Shown: positions 2,191 through 47,686 of the stretch, one piece after another
How positions within the stretch are numbered: position 1 is the stretch's first letter
Layout: every line of letters starts with the position of its first letter
Assembly: GCA_018820925.1 (NCBI GenBank)
Contig: JAHJNJ010000003.1
Location: 1-64,000, forward strand
Direction of reading: 5' to 3'
From: Gammaproteobacteria bacterium
Lineage (GTDB): Bacteria > Pseudomonadota > Gammaproteobacteria > Burkholderiales > Gallionellaceae
DNA length: 64,000 nt
Made by a program: the position numbers and the translations under genes
The notes under the pieces: model-generated
What the model was told of the DNA's origin: nothing
Databases searched by the model: none
What the model saw: the letters and a program-made list of their open reading frames with translations, nothing else

Positions 2191-5054
2191 GATACGGCAT
2201 CGGCCTGTCAACGCGCATTACCTTCGGGGTGTTGCTGCTGTTGGTGGCCGGGGCGGTGCTGTGGATCGACAACGCGAACAACCGCCTGCGCGATTCCTAT
2301 ATGAGCGAACGCAGCGTCGACCTGGAAGCGGCGCTGCGTGTCGACCAACAGCGTCTGGGGCGCGATATCGAGACCCTGCGCAAGGATGTATTGTTTCTTG
2401 CCAACACGCCGCCGGTCTCGGGCATGGTGCGCGCCAGCATGAACCGCGGGGTCGATCCCCGCGACAGGATTTCCCATGCCACCTGGGAAACGCAACTGCA
2501 GGAAACCTTTGCCGCATTCTTGCGCGCGCACCCGGACTATTACCAGGCGCGCTTTATCGGCGCGGCCGGCGAGGGGCCGGAACTGGTGCGCGTCGAGAAA
2601 CGCGAAGGCCGGATAGATATTGTTCCGCGCGAAGCGTTGCAGGCGCAAGGTGGCCAGGATTTCTTCAAAGTCGGGTTGACGATGACGGTCGGGCGCGTGC
2701 ATCTCTCCGAATTCACGCTCAATCAGGAACGGGGCAAAATCGAGGCGCCGCATCGTCCCGTACTGCGCGCAGTCACGACTGTGTTCGACGCGGGCGGTCG
2801 CGTGTTCGGCATGGTGGTGATCAGCAAGGATGTGCTCCCGCTGTTTTCTTCTTCCCTGGCGGGGCTGCCGCACGGCGTGCTGGGTTATATCGCCGATCAA
2901 CGCGGGCATTACCTGTCCCATCCGGATGCCAAACATGCATTCACATTCGAGTTCGGGAACAAGGAAACGATCACCGACGATTTTCCCTCGCTCAAGCCGA
3001 TGCTGGAAGCGCAGGCAACGCGCAACGAAATGCCTTTCCATGCCGTGAAAGGCAGGATGAAGGGCTACCTGGCGGCGGAACGGGTATTTTTCGATATCGG
3101 CGATCCGTCGCGCTATTTATTGCTGGCCTATTTCATTCCCGCGCAGATGGTGGACAAGCAGGCGTCCGGTATTCCCTTGCCGAACATCGTCGATATCATA
3201 TTGGCGATGCTGGTGGTGGGCGTCGCGTTCATGCTGCTGTTGCGCTATACCTTTTCCCCGCTCAAACGCATCACCGCAGACGCGCGCGAAATCGCAGCGG
3301 GAAACCGCAAGACCCGTCTCAAGGAGAAGGCGGGCGGCGAGGTCGGCGAAATCACCGGCGCGTTCAACGTCATGCTGGACAAGCTGTCGGATAGCGACCA
3401 GGTCGGGAAGGAAAACGCATTCCGCAAGGAAATGATCGCATCCCTGCCGGGGATTTTCTGCATGATCGATATGCAGGGGCATTTCCTGATGTGGAACCGC
3501 CACCTGGAACAGGTGTTGCAGCGCAAGAAAGGCGAGGTGGCGGCCAGTCACCCGCTGGATTACTTCGAGGGCGAGGATAAAGTCAGTATCGAGAACGCGA
3601 TTCGCCAGGTCTTCGACACGGGCGAAGCGGAGCTTGATGCGTGGTTGCTGGCGAAAGACGGCAGCAAAACCCTGTATCGTCTCAACGGCCGGCGCATCCT
3701 GTACGACGGCAAGCCGGTGCTGGTCGGTTTGGGGGTCGATATCTCCTCGCATTTGCAGGCCGAGTCGGTACTCAGGCGGCACAAGGCGGTGATCGAGATC
3801 GCACATGACGGATACTGGCTGGCCGATATGCAGGGCTATCTGCTGGAAGCCAACCAGGCCTATGCCAATATCTCCGGCTACTCGCTGGACGAATTGGCGG
3901 GGATGCACATCAGCCAACTGGAAGCGCTGGAGAAATCGCCGGAAGAAGTGCAATTGCATATCGCCAGGATCAAAGAACGGGGTTTTGACGTCTTCGAAAC
4001 GCGCCACCGCCACAAGGATGGCCATGAGATCGATATCGAAGTGTCGGTCAGCCTGATGCGCGAGGCACAACAGATGGTGGCGTTCTGCCGCGACATTTCG
4101 GCGCGCAAAAACAGCGAAGAGGCATTGCGTGTGGCGGCTGCGACTTTTGAAACGCAGGATGCCATTCTCATCACCGATGCCCAGGCCAATATCATGCGCG
4201 TCAACCGCGCCTTCAGCGAAATTACCGGCTATAGCGCCGAGGAAGTGATCGGCAAGAATCCGCGCATCATGAGTTCCGGGCGGCAGGACAAGGCCTTCTA
4301 TACGGCGATGTGGCAGCAGATCCTGGAGACGGGTTCGTGGGCGGGAGAAATCTGGGACCGGCGCAAGAACGGCGAGATCTACCCGAAGTGGCTGACCATC
4401 ACCGCGGTGAGAAACGAGCACGGCGAAACCACCCGCTACGTGGCGATTTTCAGCGATATCACGGCGCGCAAACAGGAGGAGGAAACGATACGCGGCATGG
4501 CGTTCTACGACGCGCTGACGCAGTTGCCCAACCGGCGTTTGTTCCTGGAGCGCCTGCAAACGGCGCTGCTGGCTTCGGAGCGTTACCGGGACTACGGGGC
4601 GATCTTGTTCATTGATCTGGATCGTTTCAAAGTACTGAACGATACGCACGGGCACGACTACGGAGATCTGCTGCTGGTGGAATTGGCGGCGCGCGTCAAA
4701 TCCTGCGTACGCGAAATCGACACGGTGGCGCGCCTGGGGGGTGACGAATTCGTGGTGCTGCTGGAGAGTTCCAGCAGCAATTGCGAAGCAGCCGCACACA
4801 ATGCCGGACTGGTGGCCGAAAAAATACGTGAAACGTTATCGCATCCCTATCAACTCAAGGAACATGAGCACTGCTGCTCGCCCAGCATCGGTATCGCCCT
4901 GTACCAGGGCAACACCGAGACCATGGACGTCCTGCTCAAACAGGCCGATGCCGCCATGTATCAATCCAAGGATAAGGGGGGGAATTGTGTGCGTTATTAC
5001 GATGTCGGCTTGCAGGAGAAATGGGAGACTGGGACACTGAACCAATCCCGGTAA
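2187..5054 (+). CDS. Membrane diguanylate cyclase with periplasmic sensor, HAMP, three PAS domains and GGDEF
   Basis: 955-residue c-di-GMP synthase. A first membrane helix (about 10-27) and a second (335-354) bracket a roughly 300-residue periplasmic sensor of double-Cache type. A HAMP linker (355-405) follows, then three PAS regions (about 415-525, 530-645, 650-765) and a GGDEF domain (775-945). The catalytic motif GGDEF is at 851-855. The inhibitory site RxxD (R842-D845) is intact, so product inhibition is expected. There is no EAL domain. The start overlaps the glycosylase stop by 4 bp. The next gene is another diguanylate cyclase. The signal sensed is unknown. Confidence 0.93.
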   Translation: MRYGIGLSTRITFGVLLLLVAGAVLWIDNANNRLRDSYMSERSVDLEAALRVDQQRLGRDIETLRKDVLFLANTPPVSGMVRASMNRGVDPRDRISHATWETQLQETFAAFLRAHPDYYQARFIGAAGEGPELVRVEKREGRIDIVPREALQAQGGQDFFKVGLTMTVGRVHLSEFTLNQERGKIEAPHRPVLRAVTTVFDAGGRVFGMVVISKDVLPLFSSSLAGLPHGVLGYIADQRGHYLSHPDAKHAFTFEFGNKETITDDFPSLKPMLEAQATRNEMPFHAVKGRMKGYLAAERVFFDIGDPSRYLLLAYFIPAQMVDKQASGIPLPNIVDIILAMLVVGVAFMLLLRYTFSPLKRITADAREIAAGNRKTRLKEKAGGEVGEITGAFNVMLDKLSDSDQVGKENAFRKEMIASLPGIFCMIDMQGHFLMWNRHLEQVLQRKKGEVAASHPLDYFEGEDKVSIENAIRQVFDTGEAELDAWLLAKDGSKTLYRLNGRRILYDGKPVLVGLGVDISSHLQAESVLRRHKAVIEIAHDGYWLADMQGYLLEANQAYANISGYSLDELAGMHISQLEALEKSPEEVQLHIARIKERGFDVFETRHRHKDGHEIDIEVSVSLMREAQQMVAFCRDISARKNSEEALRVAAATFETQDAILITDAQANIMRVNRAFSEITGYSAEEVIGKNPRIMSSGRQDKAFYTAMWQQILETGSWAGEIWDRRKNGEIYPKWLTITAVRNEHGETTRYVAIFSDITARKQEEETIRGMAFYDALTQLPNRRLFLERLQTALLASERYRDYGAILFIDLDRFKVLNDTHGHDYGDLLLVELAARVKSCVREIDTVARLGGDEFVVLLESSSSNCEAAAHNAGLVAEKIRETLSHPYQLKEHEHCCSPSIGIALYQGNTETMDVLLKQADAAMYQSKDKGGNCVRYYDVGLQEKWETGTLNQSR

Positions 5055-5133
5055 TGTCCGGATAAGTGCATGAAACAACAAGGTGGGCGGTATTTTGGAT
5101 TTATAATGCCCCGAAATTCCCGAACAACCAAAA

Positions 5134-6105
5134 ATGAGAAAACGAGCAGACGCAATCAAAGTGCTGGTAGTGGAAGACAGCAAGGTCACCCTGAAAGTCT
5201 TGTGCAATTTTCTCGAACGCATGGATATCAGGAATCCGCTGACCGCCGAAACCGGCGCTGCCGCCATCGAGTTGTATCGCAAGGAACGCCCGGACATCAT
5301 CCTGCTGGATGCGCAATTGCCCGATATCGACGGTTTCGAGATCGCCGAACAGATCCGGGCGACCGAACAAAAAGACGATTGGACGGCGATCATTTTCCTG
5401 ACCAGCATGACCAAGGATGAAGACCTTGCGCGCGGCATCCGGGCCGGCGGCGACGATTACCTGTTGAAGCCGGTCAGCGAAGTGGTGTTGCAGGCCAAGA
5501 TGCGCGCCATGCAGCGCCTGGTGGAGATGCAGCGCTCGCTGGTGGATGTGTCGCATCAATTGAATGCGGCCAACAAGGAACTGCAACGTCTTTCCACCAC
5601 GGACGGTCTGACCGGCATTCCCAACCGCCGCATGTTCGACGAATTGTCCATCCGCGAGTGGCGGCGCTGCGAGCGCATGAAGAAACCCATCGCGCTGGTC
5701 ATGCTGGACATCGACAATTTCAAACTGTTCAACGATGAGTACGGCCACCGCGCCGGAGACGAGTGCCTGCGCGCCGTGGCGACCCAGGTGGCGCGCGCCG
5801 CGCCGCGCGCGGCCGATCTGGCGGCGCGTTACGGCGGCGAGGAATTCGTGCTGGTGTTGGGCGAGACGGATGCCGACGGTGCGCGCTGGGTGGCGGAAAA
5901 TGTGCGCCAGCATGTGAACGAACTTGCCATCCCGCATGCCACGCCATCGCGGCGCGTGACGATCAGTTGCGGGGTTGCTTCCGCCATGCCGCGTAGCGGC
6001 TTGTCACTGGATGTGTTGCTGAGATCGGCCGATCACGCTCTGTATGAGGCCAAGGCGGCAGGGCGCGATCTGGTGGTGGTGGGCAAGTACGGAAAAGTGC
6101 AGTAA
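5134..6105 (+). CDS. Response regulator with REC and GGDEF domains (diguanylate cyclase)
   Basis: 323 residues: a receiver domain (about 8-125), a short coiled linker and a GGDEF domain (about 150-315), the PleD/WspR-like layout. The receiver has the acidic pair E14-D15, phospho-acceptor D59 in IILLDAQLPDIDG, and the conserved lysine in LLKPVS. The active site reads GGEEF and the preceding RAAD is an intact I-site, so phosphorylation-dependent, product-inhibited synthesis is likely. No histidine kinase lies beside it. The preceding membrane diguanylate cyclase may share its regulation. A TATAAT at 5102-5107 could be a -10 box, but no matching -35 is visible. Confidence 0.93.
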   Translation: MRKRADAIKVLVVEDSKVTLKVLCNFLERMDIRNPLTAETGAAAIELYRKERPDIILLDAQLPDIDGFEIAEQIRATEQKDDWTAIIFLTSMTKDEDLARGIRAGGDDYLLKPVSEVVLQAKMRAMQRLVEMQRSLVDVSHQLNAANKELQRLSTTDGLTGIPNRRMFDELSIREWRRCERMKKPIALVMLDIDNFKLFNDEYGHRAGDECLRAVATQVARAAPRAADLAARYGGEEFVLVLGETDADGARWVAENVRQHVNELAIPHATPSRRVTISCGVASAMPRSGLSLDVLLRSADHALYEAKAAGRDLVVVGKYGKVQ

Positions 6106-6119
6106 TTCTCAACGGTCTG

Positions 6120-6560
6120 TCAGCGCGTGTGATCGGCCCAGTTGTTGGGCGTCTCGTACAGGCGCACGCGTTCCAATCGCAGATGGTTGCCGTAGGTGTC
6201 GTGGTAGGCATCCTGCAGCAAATCAAACGCAACCTTCGCCAGATTCTCCGCCGTCGGGATTACGTCCAGTACTACCGTTTTATGGCCGGGCAAGGTATTC
6301 AGAAAATCCAGCACGACCTTGTCGCCGCGATACACGATAAAAGCGTGATCCCACTTGTCGACCACGCGCTCCTTGGCGATGTGCTTCACATCCGAAAAAT
6401 CCATCACCATGCCTTGTTCCGAAACGCCCTCGGTGGTAATGACGTCGCCCGACAGTGTGATCTCGATGATGTAGCGGTGGCCGTGCAGGTGCTTGCATTG
6501 GCTGTTGTGGTTGGGGATGCGGTGTCCGGCATCGAATTCCAGGCGGCGGGTGATTTGCAT
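6120..6560 (-). CDS. queD: 6-carboxy-5,6,7,8-tetrahydropterin synthase QueD
   Basis: 146-residue member of the PTPS fold that converts dihydroneopterin triphosphate to 6-carboxytetrahydropterin in queuosine/7-deazaguanine synthesis. Zinc ligands appear in FDAGHRIP and in the CKHLHGHRY motif, whose cysteine is the catalytic thiol of the QueD class. VDKWDHAFI and the PTAENLA segment complete the active-site set. It lies tail to tail with the response-regulator cyclase. The other que genes are not in the window. Confidence 0.95.
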   Translation of the reverse strand: MQITRRLEFDAGHRIPNHNSQCKHLHGHRYIIEITLSGDVITTEGVSEQGMVMDFSDVKHIAKERVVDKWDHAFIVYRGDKVVLDFLNTLPGHKTVVLDVIPTAENLAKVAFDLLQDAYHDTYGNHLRLERVRLYETPNNWADHTR

Positions 6561-34783: not shown

Positions 34784-36145
34784 TCATTCGATGAGGACTG
34801 ACTGCGTGTGTCTTTCCATATTGATGGTTTCATCGTACTGATGCCGATCGTGCCGAATTGCCCGGTTGCCACTCGGCAATTCACTGTTGCGCTCGATTTG
34901 TTTGCGAAATGCCGGTTGGCCAACGCGGCCAAATAGCGTGTCATCCGGCTCCCAAAGAATCTGGAATACCGCGAAGGAATCCTGCTTGCCCCTGAATGCG
35001 GCGCGCATGACGGGGCGCGTTTTGTCTGCAAACCCGGCCGGCAATGCTTCAACAACGGTTTGTGTGGTCAGGATTTGCCGGGCTCTTGTGACAGCCGTTA
35101 CCCGCGCGGCGATATTCACGGCATCTCCAAACACATCGTTATCTTTGCGAATGACTTCGCCGTAATGGAAGCCGATTCGTACAAAAATCGGATTTTCGCC
35201 GCCCGGTTGCTGCGCCTCAATGGCGCGCTGCATGGCACTGGCCGCCAGGGTTGCCTGGGCGATGCTCGGGAACGAGCACATGATCTCGTCACCGATGGTC
35301 TTGATCAGGGTGCCTTTATGCGCGGCGACTTCCCTGGCCAGGATGTTCAAGGTATGAGAAACGACATGCAACGCGGAATCGTTGCCCAATTTGTCGTACA
35401 GCGCGGTACTTCCGCTGATGTCCGCGAACAGGATGACCATCTTGCCCTTCTGCGGAACCGGAAAGGTTGTTTTGGCATGACCGGCAAGGTTCTGTTTGGC
35501 TGCGTAGCGGATGATTTCCGCAATGCGCATATCGTTGTTCAGCAAGGCCAACTCAATGGGCGTTTTCCCGTCCTTGTTCCTGATGCGGAGTGTCGCACCA
35601 AAAAACAGCAACAACAGCACCAGATCGGCATGGCCATTCTCGATGGCCAGGATGAGCGGAATCTCGCCATCCTGGCGAAAATTGACTTCGGCACCGGTTA
35701 TCAGCGATTGATGCAGCGTAGCGAAATCGCCATTGCGTATTGCGGTGAGGATACCGGTTCTGGATTCAATGGAGTCGAGCTTGGGACTGGTCTCTTGGGC
35801 ATCGTCTTTGTGAATTTTGCGCGGCTTCAGGTGGTACATCTTGTATAGCAAGGCAACACAAACGAGCATGCCGGACGCCGCAATCATTGCGGTTTGGCTG
35901 ATGCCCAACTGGTTTGCCAATTGCGCCGGCAGGTTTGCGCCAATGGCCAAAACCGAAACCGTGAGGAACAGCATCAGTTTGAGATAACGGAACAGAGAGA
36001 TAACGACCGTCGCTACCAGTGTGACCAATAACAGGTTGCGGTCGACAACGTTTCCAACTGCGCCTTCGGGCAAATTGGCAGCAAGCGCCATCAGGGAAAC
36101 AATTACCAGGATGACAACTTCGCTGTTTGATATTCTGATTTGCAT
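34784..36145 (-). CDS. Class III adenylate cyclase with N-terminal membrane and ankyrin-repeat domains
   Basis: 453 residues. Four hydrophobic helices (about 9-24, 36-53, 56-71, 84-103) are followed by ankyrin-like repeats (about 127-220) and a class III cyclase catalytic domain (about 232-400). Metal-binding aspartates are in ILFADISGSTALYDKLG and TIGDEIMCSF. The lysine of LIKTIGDE and the DVFGDAVNIAARV region fit ATP specificity. The last 50 residues are polar and unassigned. AAGGAAGGAGG precedes the ATG. A c-di-GMP-I riboswitch lies about 100 bp upstream on the same strand, so cAMP output should respond to c-di-GMP. Confidence 0.9.
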   Translation of the reverse strand: MQIRISNSEVVILVIVSLMALAANLPEGAVGNVVDRNLLLVTLVATVVISLFRYLKLMLFLTVSVLAIGANLPAQLANQLGISQTAMIAASGMLVCVALLYKMYHLKPRKIHKDDAQETSPKLDSIESRTGILTAIRNGDFATLHQSLITGAEVNFRQDGEIPLILAIENGHADLVLLLLFFGATLRIRNKDGKTPIELALLNNDMRIAEIIRYAAKQNLAGHAKTTFPVPQKGKMVILFADISGSTALYDKLGNDSALHVVSHTLNILAREVAAHKGTLIKTIGDEIMCSFPSIAQATLAASAMQRAIEAQQPGGENPIFVRIGFHYGEVIRKDNDVFGDAVNIAARVTAVTRARQILTTQTVVEALPAGFADKTRPVMRAAFRGKQDSFAVFQILWEPDDTLFGRVGQPAFRKQIERNSELPSGNRAIRHDRHQYDETINMERHTQSVLIE

Positions 36146-36241
36146 TTGCTCGCCTCCTTCCTTGAGCGCATTCGCTATCGGAAAAGGGGCTGCAAATATA
36201 TCGGTGGGACAATACTTGGGAGGTAACGGATTCCAATCGAT

Positions 36242-36341
36242 GCCTGCATGGAAACCGGCAATCCCGCTGTCGTAGAACCGTGAAGTTCCTTAGACCGGTA
36301 ACTTTGCGTCCCTATTTTTCAATAGGTTTGCTTTTGTAGGC
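36242..36341 (-). promoter_or_regulatory. c-di-GMP-I (GEMM-I) riboswitch
   Basis: Read on the minus strand: GCAAACC, a short hairpin, GGGACGCAAAG, then ACCGGTCTAAGG, ACGGTTCTACGACAGCGGG and ATTGCCGG. Order and spacing match the GEMM-I aptamer (Vc2: GCAAACC, GGGACGCAAAGC, CCGGCCUAA, GGUAGGUAGCGGGGUUACCG). GCCTAC (36336-36341) and GCAGGC (36242-36247) can close P1. The downstream leader contains ACCTCCC, which could pair with the AGGAGG ribosome site of the cyclase gene, suggesting translational control. Whether ligand turns expression on or off cannot be told. Confidence 0.9.
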
Positions 36342-36421
36342 GTTAATTTACTCCAGAATAACGCGGTTTCATAGATATTTCAGGGGCGCGCCCCTGCTAA
36401 CCCTACCAATTTACGCATGTT

Positions 36422-37099
36422 TCAGATTGTCCACCGGGCTGGTTGTGTTTCGCAGATATCCGGTTTGGCGGGCGATTCAGCACTCAAGCCCATGATGGGC
36501 AATTCTTCGCGCGGCAGGTCAAGTGCTTCCAGCACTTTCAGTGCCGCATAGGCATCGTTTGCCGCGTAGAGCATTTGTTGTTGGGTGAGTTCATGTTGCG
36601 ACCAGTCGGTGGTGGTGATCTTCTTCGATTTGGCAAAGCGCTGCTTGAAGACCAGGCCCACCGCCGCCCGTGCGCCCATTTCCCTGCGGTAGCCCTGCAT
36701 GCTGAACACCGTATTCAGATCCACCACGCCGCCGAATTTGACGCCCAGTTTCCTGAAGATATGCCCGCCGTCCGACCTGAGGCCGAAGCCAACCTTGAGT
36801 ACCTCGTCCGACTGCAGCAACTCGAGCAGAAACGGCAATCCATCAGTGCGATACACCTGAAACAAGTAGGCCTTGTCGTGCAGGGCGAACTGCACCAGGT
36901 GCGGTCCTTCACTCACATCACCGACTACAAACGTCGGCCTGGATTCGGTATCGAAACCGACGATGCCCGCTGCCTTGATCTCGGCACAGGCGGAAGCAAA
37001 TTGATCTGCGCTTGTCGGCACATGGATGTGTTGCAACGTGAGGCCCGCAAACGGCTCCATCAAGGCGATTTCATCTTTGGTGGGGGCGAGTTTTTTCAT
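36422..37099 (-). CDS. RNase D-like 3'-5' exonuclease
   Basis: 225 residues from the ATG at 37099. DEDD-superfamily exonuclease fold: Exo I is IVGFDTESRPTF, Exo II lies around LKVGFGLRSDGGHIFRKLG with VDLNTVF, and Exo III is YAANDAYAALKVLEAL, the DEDDy type. No HRDC domain is visible, unlike full RNase D. It probably trims RNA or DNA 3' ends. Confidence 0.85.
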   Translation of the reverse strand: MKKLAPTKDEIALMEPFAGLTLQHIHVPTSADQFASACAEIKAAGIVGFDTESRPTFVVGDVSEGPHLVQFALHDKAYLFQVYRTDGLPFLLELLQSDEVLKVGFGLRSDGGHIFRKLGVKFGGVVDLNTVFSMQGYRREMGARAAVGLVFKQRFAKSKKITTTDWSQHELTQQQMLYAANDAYAALKVLEALDLPREELPIMGLSAESPAKPDICETQPARWTI

Positions 37100-46540: not shown

Positions 46541-47686
46541 CTAAATACTCTTCATCGAAGCCGGCTTCCCGAACAACCACCCCTGCCCGTAATCACACCC
46601 AAGCTCCAGCAACGCCAACCGTTCATCTTCAATCTCGATTCCCTCCGCCACCACATCCATCTTGAGCGAGTGGGCGAGGTCGATGGAGGTCTGGACGATT
46701 TGGGCGTTGGGCGGGGAAGAAAGCATCTGGCTGACGAAAGAGCGGTCTATCTTCATGGTGCCGATGGGGTAGCGTTGCAGGGACTCCAGGCCGGAGTGGC
46801 CAGTGCCGAAGTCGTCCAGCGCGAGGGTGTTGCCGGCTGCGGTGAGTGTGGCCAGCAGTTGCAGGGCGAGATCGGGATTGTTGATGATGACGGTTTCGGT
46901 CAGTTCAAGTTTGAGTTCTGCGGCGGGCATGTGGTGGCGGCTGACGATGGATTTCACGCTTTCCACGAAGCCGTCGCCGGAAAGCTGCGAGGGCGACAGG
47001 TTGACGCTCACGAAGGGCTTGGGATGATTGATGCGTTCGCGCAATACCGGCCAGTCGATGCAGGCGCGCTCCAGCGTCCACAGGCCGATCTCGCGTATCT
47101 GCCCGGTCTGTTCCGCGACCCACAGGAAATCCAGCGGCGGGATCAGGCCTTCTGCCGGATGATGCCAGCGGATCAGTGCCTCGTATCCCGCGATGCGTCC
47201 GCTGGAAAGGTCGCAGATCGGCTGGTAATACATTTCGAACTGCTCTTCCCGCAGGGCTTCCGCCAAGTCGTGCGCCAGGCGCAGTTGATGGGTGGCATCG
47301 CCGCGCGTCATGTCGCGCCTGAAGGTGGTTGAGCGCGTCGGTTCAAAGGCGGGCTGGCTGCGCGTGGAGCGGTAGCGTTCGAGGATGGTCAGCAGCAAAT
47401 GGCGCACCACCGGGTCGGTTTTTTCCAGTCGCTCCTTGACCAGTTGGCGCGGAATGGGGATGAGTACGGTGTCTTCGATGGCGCGCACGGTGGCGGTACG
47501 CGGTTGCTGGTCGATCAGCGCGATCTCGCCGAACAATTCGCCCTTGTTGAGGCGCGTGTATTGCGTGCTGCTGACTTTGACCTCAACGCATCCTTCCTCG
47601 ATCAGGTAGGCACTGTTTCCGGGATCGCCTTCCTTGAAGATGATCTCTCCGGCGGAAAAGTTTTCACGATGCAGATTGTTTAGCAT
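46541..47686 (-). CDS. c-di-GMP phosphodiesterase with cyclic-nucleotide-binding domain (CRP-EAL)
   Basis: 381 residues from the ATG at 47686. The N-terminal cyclic-nucleotide-binding domain (about 1-115) has a full phosphate-binding cassette, FGEIAL (52-57) and PRTATVRA (from 62). An EAL domain (about 140-375) has all usual catalytic residues: YEALIRWHHP, SVNLSPSQL, LELTETV, LDDFGTG, MKIDRSFV, VAEGIE and QGWLFGKP. It should hydrolyse c-di-GMP under control of cAMP or cGMP. It is last in a minus-strand run after DUF4149, 28 bp away. Confidence 0.93.
   Translation of the reverse strand: MLNNLHRENFSAGEIIFKEGDPGNSAYLIEEGCVEVKVSSTQYTRLNKGELFGEIALIDQQPRTATVRAIEDTVLIPIPRQLVKERLEKTDPVVRHLLLTILERYRSTRSQPAFEPTRSTTFRRDMTRGDATHQLRLAHDLAEALREEQFEMYYQPICDLSSGRIAGYEALIRWHHPAEGLIPPLDFLWVAEQTGQIREIGLWTLERACIDWPVLRERINHPKPFVSVNLSPSQLSGDGFVESVKSIVSRHHMPAAELKLELTETVIINNPDLALQLLATLTAAGNTLALDDFGTGHSGLESLQRYPIGTMKIDRSFVSQMLSSPPNAQIVQTSIDLAHSLKMDVVAEGIEIEDERLALLELGCDYGQGWLFGKPASMKSI

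Follow-up and report, generated by a model that had tools for sequence, protein, structure and literature searches.

Can a cyclic dinucleotide control the synthesis of cAMP directly at the level of RNA? The question is raised by a 64-kb stretch of DNA (the window) in which an earlier note, made from the letters alone, had placed a c-di-GMP-I (GEMM-I) aptamer in the minus-strand leader of a membrane/ankyrin adenylate cyclase gene. The window represents contig 33 of a genome of 3.44 Mb. Most of the named relatives of the cyclase come from the Gallionellaceae (Gallionella, Sideroxydans, Sideroxyarcus), which makes an iron oxidiser of this family the most likely host.

A GEMM-I aptamer in the leader of a class III cyclase gene

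The proposed aptamer was borne out by cmscan at the gathering threshold, which identified RF01051 as the sole Rfam match in the window. The match is significant and full-length, extending over model positions 1-87 of 87 with a score of 79.1 bits against a gathering value of 35 (E 6.7e-14; Table 1). The aptamer is located upstream of the cyclase ATG, as claimed, but the two are separated by 108 nt and not by the ~97 nt given previously. Judged from this match, the RNA belongs to the GEMM-I fold class. It shares with Vc2-type c-di-GMP-I riboswitches (RF01051) the core, the helices and the position in the leader, and differs from them by an A replacing the G at the G20 position and by the class III adenylate cyclase gene that lies downstream. 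In an alignment of 18 leaders, 96.5% of the cells in the aptamer helices hold standard pairs, a share that falls to 33-47% in slid controls. Three pairs display changes on both sides, a number that is itself not above that of shuffles (258/500), and the P3 hairpin shows some compensatory change with pairing retained. Two positions of the alignment, C80 and A33 in first-row numbering, are invariant and are taken to be the equivalents of C92 and A47 of the known aptamer.

The genome carries one further RF01051 match (L002; G000:C31:4386-4467, minus strand), which has G20 and a flipped P1b pair (GGCCAAACC with GACGG). The gene that follows it presumably encodes a PEP-CTERM-like protein.

Table 1. 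Position of the features of the window discussed in the text.
Feature	Position	Strand	Basis or remark
c-di-GMP-I (GEMM-I) riboswitch aptamer	36254..36342	-	RF01051, 79.1 bits, full length
A at the Vc2 G20 equivalent (ligand-selectivity position)	36332..36332	-	cmscan alignment, model position 11
Aptamer strand UAGGGACGCAAAG, predicted to form one half of the anti-aptamer helix	36302..36314	-	
Platform strand UUUGCAGCCCC, predicted anti-aptamer partner; its C-rich portion would act as the anti-Shine-Dalgarno tract	36186..36196	-	
CCTCCC, earlier-proposed ribosome-site mask	36218..36223	-	present; kept only in some relatives
AGGAGG ribosome-binding site	36153..36158	-	sequence
TATTCT, possible -10 element	36355..36360	-	by position only; in 12 of 19 relatives the corresponding site is [GC]ATAATG
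Membrane/ankyrin/class III adenylate cyclase, 453 aa	34784..36145	-	PF12796 at 134-213, PF00211 at 231-377
cNMP-binding + EAL protein, Bd1971 relative	46541..47686	-	PF00027 + PF00563

No promoter was returned by a sigma-70 consensus scan of positions 36100-36600, and no intrinsic terminator was found in the same interval. In 12 of 19 relatives, as counted by eye, a conserved [GC]ATAATG element stands just upstream of the aptamer and suggests that transcription begins ahead of it. A start downstream of it, named in the earlier note as a finding that would speak against a riboswitch, is thus less likely, although the window itself lacks the element.

The cyclase displays a PF00211 domain scoring 60.1 bits (cut-off 21.9) and an N terminus that is hydrophobic as judged by eye. 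Asp-242, Lys-282, Asp-286, Asp-337, Asn-344 and Arg-348 are all present. Their presumed roles are metal binding (D242 and D286), adenine recognition (K282 and D337) and stabilisation of the transition state (N344 and R348). Since all six adenylate cyclase residues are present, cAMP is the expected product. The nearest solved cyclase is Ma1120 (PDB code 4wp3), and the protein has the same metal, adenine-selecting and transition-state residues as class III adenylate cyclases (PF00211, Ma1120); in contrast to these, it is fused to a hydrophobic N-terminal region and ankyrin repeats and is preceded by a riboswitch. The genome contains nine PF00211 matches and two RF01051 matches, the other aptamer preceding the PEP-CTERM-like gene; thus, one of the nine class III cyclases would be under GEMM-I control. 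It also contains 19 cNMP-binding domains and three HTH_Crp_2 matches over the cut-off, which could receive the cAMP. Three other proteins of this genome (L394, L396 and L400) are Ser/Thr-type protein kinases with a C-terminal cNMP-binding domain.

Recurrence of the arrangement in the family

The cyclase (E<=1e-60) and RF01051 were searched in the same 158 genomes of the family. Near-full-length cyclase matches, starting at query residues 1-5, were identified in 20 genomes, one of them (L182) truncated by a contig end. In 19 of these 20 homologs the aptamer is found on the same strand, 95-108 nt before the start codon, and all six catalytic and specificity residues are kept in all 19 GEMM-linked cyclases. 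The only homolog without an aptamer (L190, genome G874) occupies a long branch in the cyclase tree, and a Gly replaces the metal Asp at the position of D286. A contig search of genomes revealed RF01051 upstream of all 11 near-full-length relatives among the first 11 of 80 matches listed, although these 11 probably overlap in species with the 158 family genomes. The arrangement that the earlier note had proposed to look for in related genomes therefore recurs, and the RF01051 match together with the 19 of 20 homologs supports a GEMM-I-led gene of the adenylate cyclase type.

Predicted switch mechanism

The switch is visible only as complementarity of the platform with the aptamer, the platform alone displaying almost no consensus structure (RNAalifold). 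Over 18 leaders, the complementarity between aptamer strand UAGGGACGCAAAG and the platform has a mean energy of -13.84, compared with -10.11 in permuted alignments, and 0 of 500 column permutations were as low. Among 13 aptamer segments tested, UAGGGACGCAAAG is set apart from the rest (z -6.0, the next value being -2.6), and in 19/19 leaders the site that pairs best with it is located at ATG-44 to -56. Taken leader by leader, the z value of the anti-aptamer pairing is negative in 17/19 (p<0.05 in 6/19) and positive in L178 and L179; the pairing of the window itself is weak (z -0.4, p 0.35). A second candidate contact, CCGUU with AGCGGG, was traced by eye. Its CCGU is invariant, but the contact was rejected, as its pairing does not rise above permutations (segment starting at column 72, z -0.9) and few folds populate it.

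CCTCC and the AGGAGG ribosome site are both present in the leader, as had been noted. However, the masking of the ribosome site by CCTCC proposed on that basis is not conserved, many relatives lacking CCTCC, and the alternative partner that is conserved lies in another tract, around ATG-40 to -56. The best Shine-Dalgarno (SD) partner overlaps this platform tract in 14/19 leaders and lies elsewhere in 5/19, and by itself the SD-platform pairing does not reach significance (matched in strength by 25 of 300 permutations). When the anti-aptamer helix is enforced, the mean unpaired probability of the SD is 0.46, compared with 0.22 when the aptamer is enforced (0.55 and 0.18 in the window), and is higher in 16/19 leaders and lower in 0/19, a release that arises partly by construction. 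In ensembles computed without ligand, the anti-aptamer state is the more stable in 17/19 leaders; the window is one of the two exceptions, with an aptamer-constrained ensemble (-59.7) that has a slight advantage in stability over its anti-aptamer ensemble (-58.0). Unconstrained folding gives an SD accessibility of 0.34, against 0.22 with the aptamer constrained, and both values are 0.18 in the window.

The conserved complementarity of the platform to the aptamer, the overlap with the SD-complementary tract and the SD accessibility lead to the prediction, made with moderate confidence, of a translational OFF switch; the earlier note had not committed itself to a sign. In the modelled mechanism, the platform strand UUUGyGUCyCU would pair in the absence of ligand with aptamer strand UAGGGACGCAAAG, thereby breaking the aptamer and occupying the pyrimidine tract. 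A cyclic dinucleotide, most likely c-di-GMP, would bind and fold the aptamer, freeing the pyrimidine tract, which could then pair with the Shine-Dalgarno sequence, so that less cyclase and less cAMP would be made. Computation shows the aptamer, its retention with the cyclase gene, the conserved complementarity and the cyclase residues, whereas ligand binding, the sign of the switch and its effect on cAMP are what we infer.

Position 20 and the identity of the ligand

The window aptamer has an A at model position 11, which is taken to be Vc2 position 20 and corresponds to column 6 of the alignment of 18 leaders. An A at position 20 is a hallmark of the cGAMP-sensing GEMM-Ib riboswitches of Geobacter. 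This cGAMP (GEMM-Ib) class is described in PMC6456294 and PMC8835794. PMC9262584 equates Cd1 G11 with Vc2 G20 and treats the G20 equivalent as a selectivity factor and not as a hard filter, and PMC10333796 attributes the preference for c-di-GMP or cAMP-GMP to G20 plus further nucleotides. The A at this selectivity position therefore makes the identity of the ligand uncertain.

Among the cyclase-linked aptamers, A20 is found in 12/19 and G20 in 7/19. The comparison set comprised 90 other family loci (89 fetched plus the second aptamer of the window genome), of which seven proved cyclase-linked and 83 were counted (71 parsed by script and 12 by eye). A20 occurs in 0 of these 83 aptamers, all of which have G, the loci having been taken from the top of score-ranked lists, which possibly favours the consensus G. 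The Fisher value of the difference is 3.7e-11, with relatedness ignored, and A20 is a feature of the cyclase leader type. On the cyclase tree, the A20/G20 label needs four changes by parsimony, at least two of which are forced by well-supported branches. Outside the family, G was found in 56/59 loci and A in 3/59 (L051, L056 and L057). The A20 GEMM-I aptamer of L056 leads a GGDEF protein with the canonical Asp.

The synthases encoded by the genome bear on the same question. The guanine-selecting Asp is kept in 51 of its 54 GGDEF domains, which makes c-di-GMP synthesis plausible; one of the others has Asn and two have Ser. The two Ser-type domains (L260 and L263) are regarded as degenerate, being devoid of both the metal aspartate and a proper GGDEF motif, so that no plausible Hypr candidate was found among the 54 domains. 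A strict S/T-type motif, applied without a positive control and directed at synthases of the GGDEF type, gave 32 matches in 30 of the 158 family genomes, and 0 of the 30 translated are in a GGDEF frame. A Hypr GGDEF that could supply cGAMP was found neither among the 54 domains of the genome nor among the 30 translated family matches. As no plausible cGAMP-making GGDEF was found, c-di-GMP is retained as the likelier ligand over cGAMP. At 4500-6069 (plus strand), the window also displays two GGDEF domain matches ~600 bases apart.

A putative phosphodiesterase related to Bd1971

A further gene of the window codes for a protein with an N-terminal cNMP-binding domain and a C-terminal EAL domain, whose best solved matches are the Bd1971 chains 6hq5 and 6hq4 (E ~3e-72, residues 13-378); Bd1971 can be aligned over both domains. 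According to PMC6717892, Bd1971, an EAL phosphodiesterase of Bdellovibrio, turns over c-di-GMP ~8-fold faster with cAMP or cGMP, and a Sideroxydans homolog is listed there. The window protein, a putative phosphodiesterase, shares both domains with Bd1971; it is encoded by a separate gene ~10 kb from the riboswitch. The gene (E<=1e-90) is present in 61/158 family genomes, that is, in 10 of the 20 with a near-full-length cyclase and in 51 of the 138 others, and in several relatives it is far from the cyclase. With these frequencies, its nearness to the cyclase in the window is probably incidental, and the notion of a gene tied to the cyclase was dropped, as half of the cyclase genomes lack it. 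The window genome also encodes two cNMP-binding-GGDEF fusions, of which one is canonical and the other degenerate; they are further possible links from cAMP to c-di-GMP (L397, G000:C34 near 227372-228205; L395, G000:C6 near 5585-6409).

If the window protein acts like Bd1971, c-di-GMP would lower cAMP and thereby its own breakdown. In this scheme c-di-GMP (or cGAMP) would repress the adenylate cyclase via the riboswitch, and cAMP would activate the Bd1971-like phosphodiesterase, which removes c-di-GMP; the two negatives would amount to a positive loop, potentially a bistable surface/planktonic switch. Such a two-messenger loop closed by RNA, together with a back-and-forth between A20 and G20 in the riboswitch of a single orthologous gene, is a tentative proposal, and on balance a doubtful one.

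Alternative explanations

The reading of the locus as a GEMM-I riboswitch that controls translation of the cyclase as an OFF switch, with c-di-GMP as the most likely ligand, is given a probability of about 0.55. A different ligand is unlikely, although several observations point to it: A20 aptamers, that of the window included, might be GEMM-Ib-like for 3',3'-cGAMP or relaxed for both dinucleotides, in which case the cyclase would in some species respond to cGAMP or to the sum of cyclic dinucleotides, and in others to c-di-GMP. The A in the window aptamer, the role in c-di-GMP selectivity given to G20 in PMC10333796 and PMC9262584, the restriction of A20 to cyclase-linked aptamers among those examined in the family and its repeated changes on the cyclase tree are all in line with such a ligand. 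In contrast, no Hypr-type GGDEF was found among the 54 domains of the genome or, with the strict motif, among the 30 translated family matches, and the A20 homologs do not precede cytochrome or pilus genes. Compared with the Geobacter GEMM-Ib riboswitches, the window RNA has the A at position 20 in common, and differs in the cyclase downstream in place of cytochrome or pilus genes and in that no Hypr GGDEF candidate was found. The sign and level of control could also be otherwise, and an ON switch, or action on transcription through Rho or RNA stability instead of the ribosome site, is similarly improbable. Both ON and OFF switches occur among GEMM-I riboswitches (PMC9262584), SD accessibility in the window is the same in free and aptamer-constrained folding, and the interval without an intrinsic terminator leaves room for Rho; against an ON switch, no leader of the 19 has an SD more accessible (by >0.05) under the aptamer than under the anti-aptamer.

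The target of the riboswitch may be not the cyclase as such but the module to which it is fused. The membrane-ankyrin module was matched in 48 of the 158 family genomes (E<=1e-8, cyclase forms counted in). Five complete module genes devoid of a cyclase follow GEMM-I aptamers with G20 (L213, L228, L268, L271 and L306), as does a fragment at a contig end (L211, also G20). The link between riboswitch and module may therefore be older than that with the cyclase, or separate from it. That the riboswitch primarily serves the module, the cyclase being a later fusion and the control of cAMP secondary, is a somewhat less remote reading than either of the preceding two, and still an improbable one: many module-only copies have no listed GEMM-I, including the paralog of the window genome at C15, whereas 19 of the 20 cyclase forms have it and these 19 keep the catalytic residues. 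Least probable by far is that the aptamer is a non-functional relic. Its ligand pocket carries a change at position 20, and homolog L173 also deviates in the conserved GCAAACC, but the aptamer, its spacing and the platform are strongly conserved across divergent relatives. A short GEMM-I form was also observed in many family genomes, before a gene that resembles one for bacteriohemerythrin (L305, L308-L310, L312, L315-L318 and L322).

Significance

The GEMM-I class, class III cyclases, ankyrin fusions and Bd1971-like enzymes are all known already. In the open-access PMC literature, to which subscription papers are mostly external, no report was found of an adenylate cyclase led by a GEMM-I riboswitch, nor of A20/G20 alternation within one orthologous leader. 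The locus thus presents a known riboswitch class before a target for which no report was found, with an unusual selectivity pattern. In a known case, c-di-GMP and cAMP meet on one gene, with an effect reported as independent of the Vc1 riboswitch (PMC4545359, in the part available). The two systems have in common two messengers acting on one gene, and differ in that the available part of that report places no cyclase under riboswitch control.

In the Gallionellaceae leaders, as far as sequence allows, the amount of one messenger that is made is probably governed by the other, directly via RNA. If so, the riboswitch would constitute a direct RNA wire from a cyclic dinucleotide to cAMP synthesis, with no intervening protein receptor, and the conserved leader offers a switching mechanism that can be tested. 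The A20/G20 variation, confined to the cyclase leader type among the family aptamers examined, provides orthologous natural variants for a change in riboswitch specificity; if the back-and-forth between A20 and G20 is true, the lineage would form a natural series for such a change in ligand. With a Bd1971-like enzyme encoded in the same window, a two-messenger feedback loop becomes testable in iron-oxidising bacteria.
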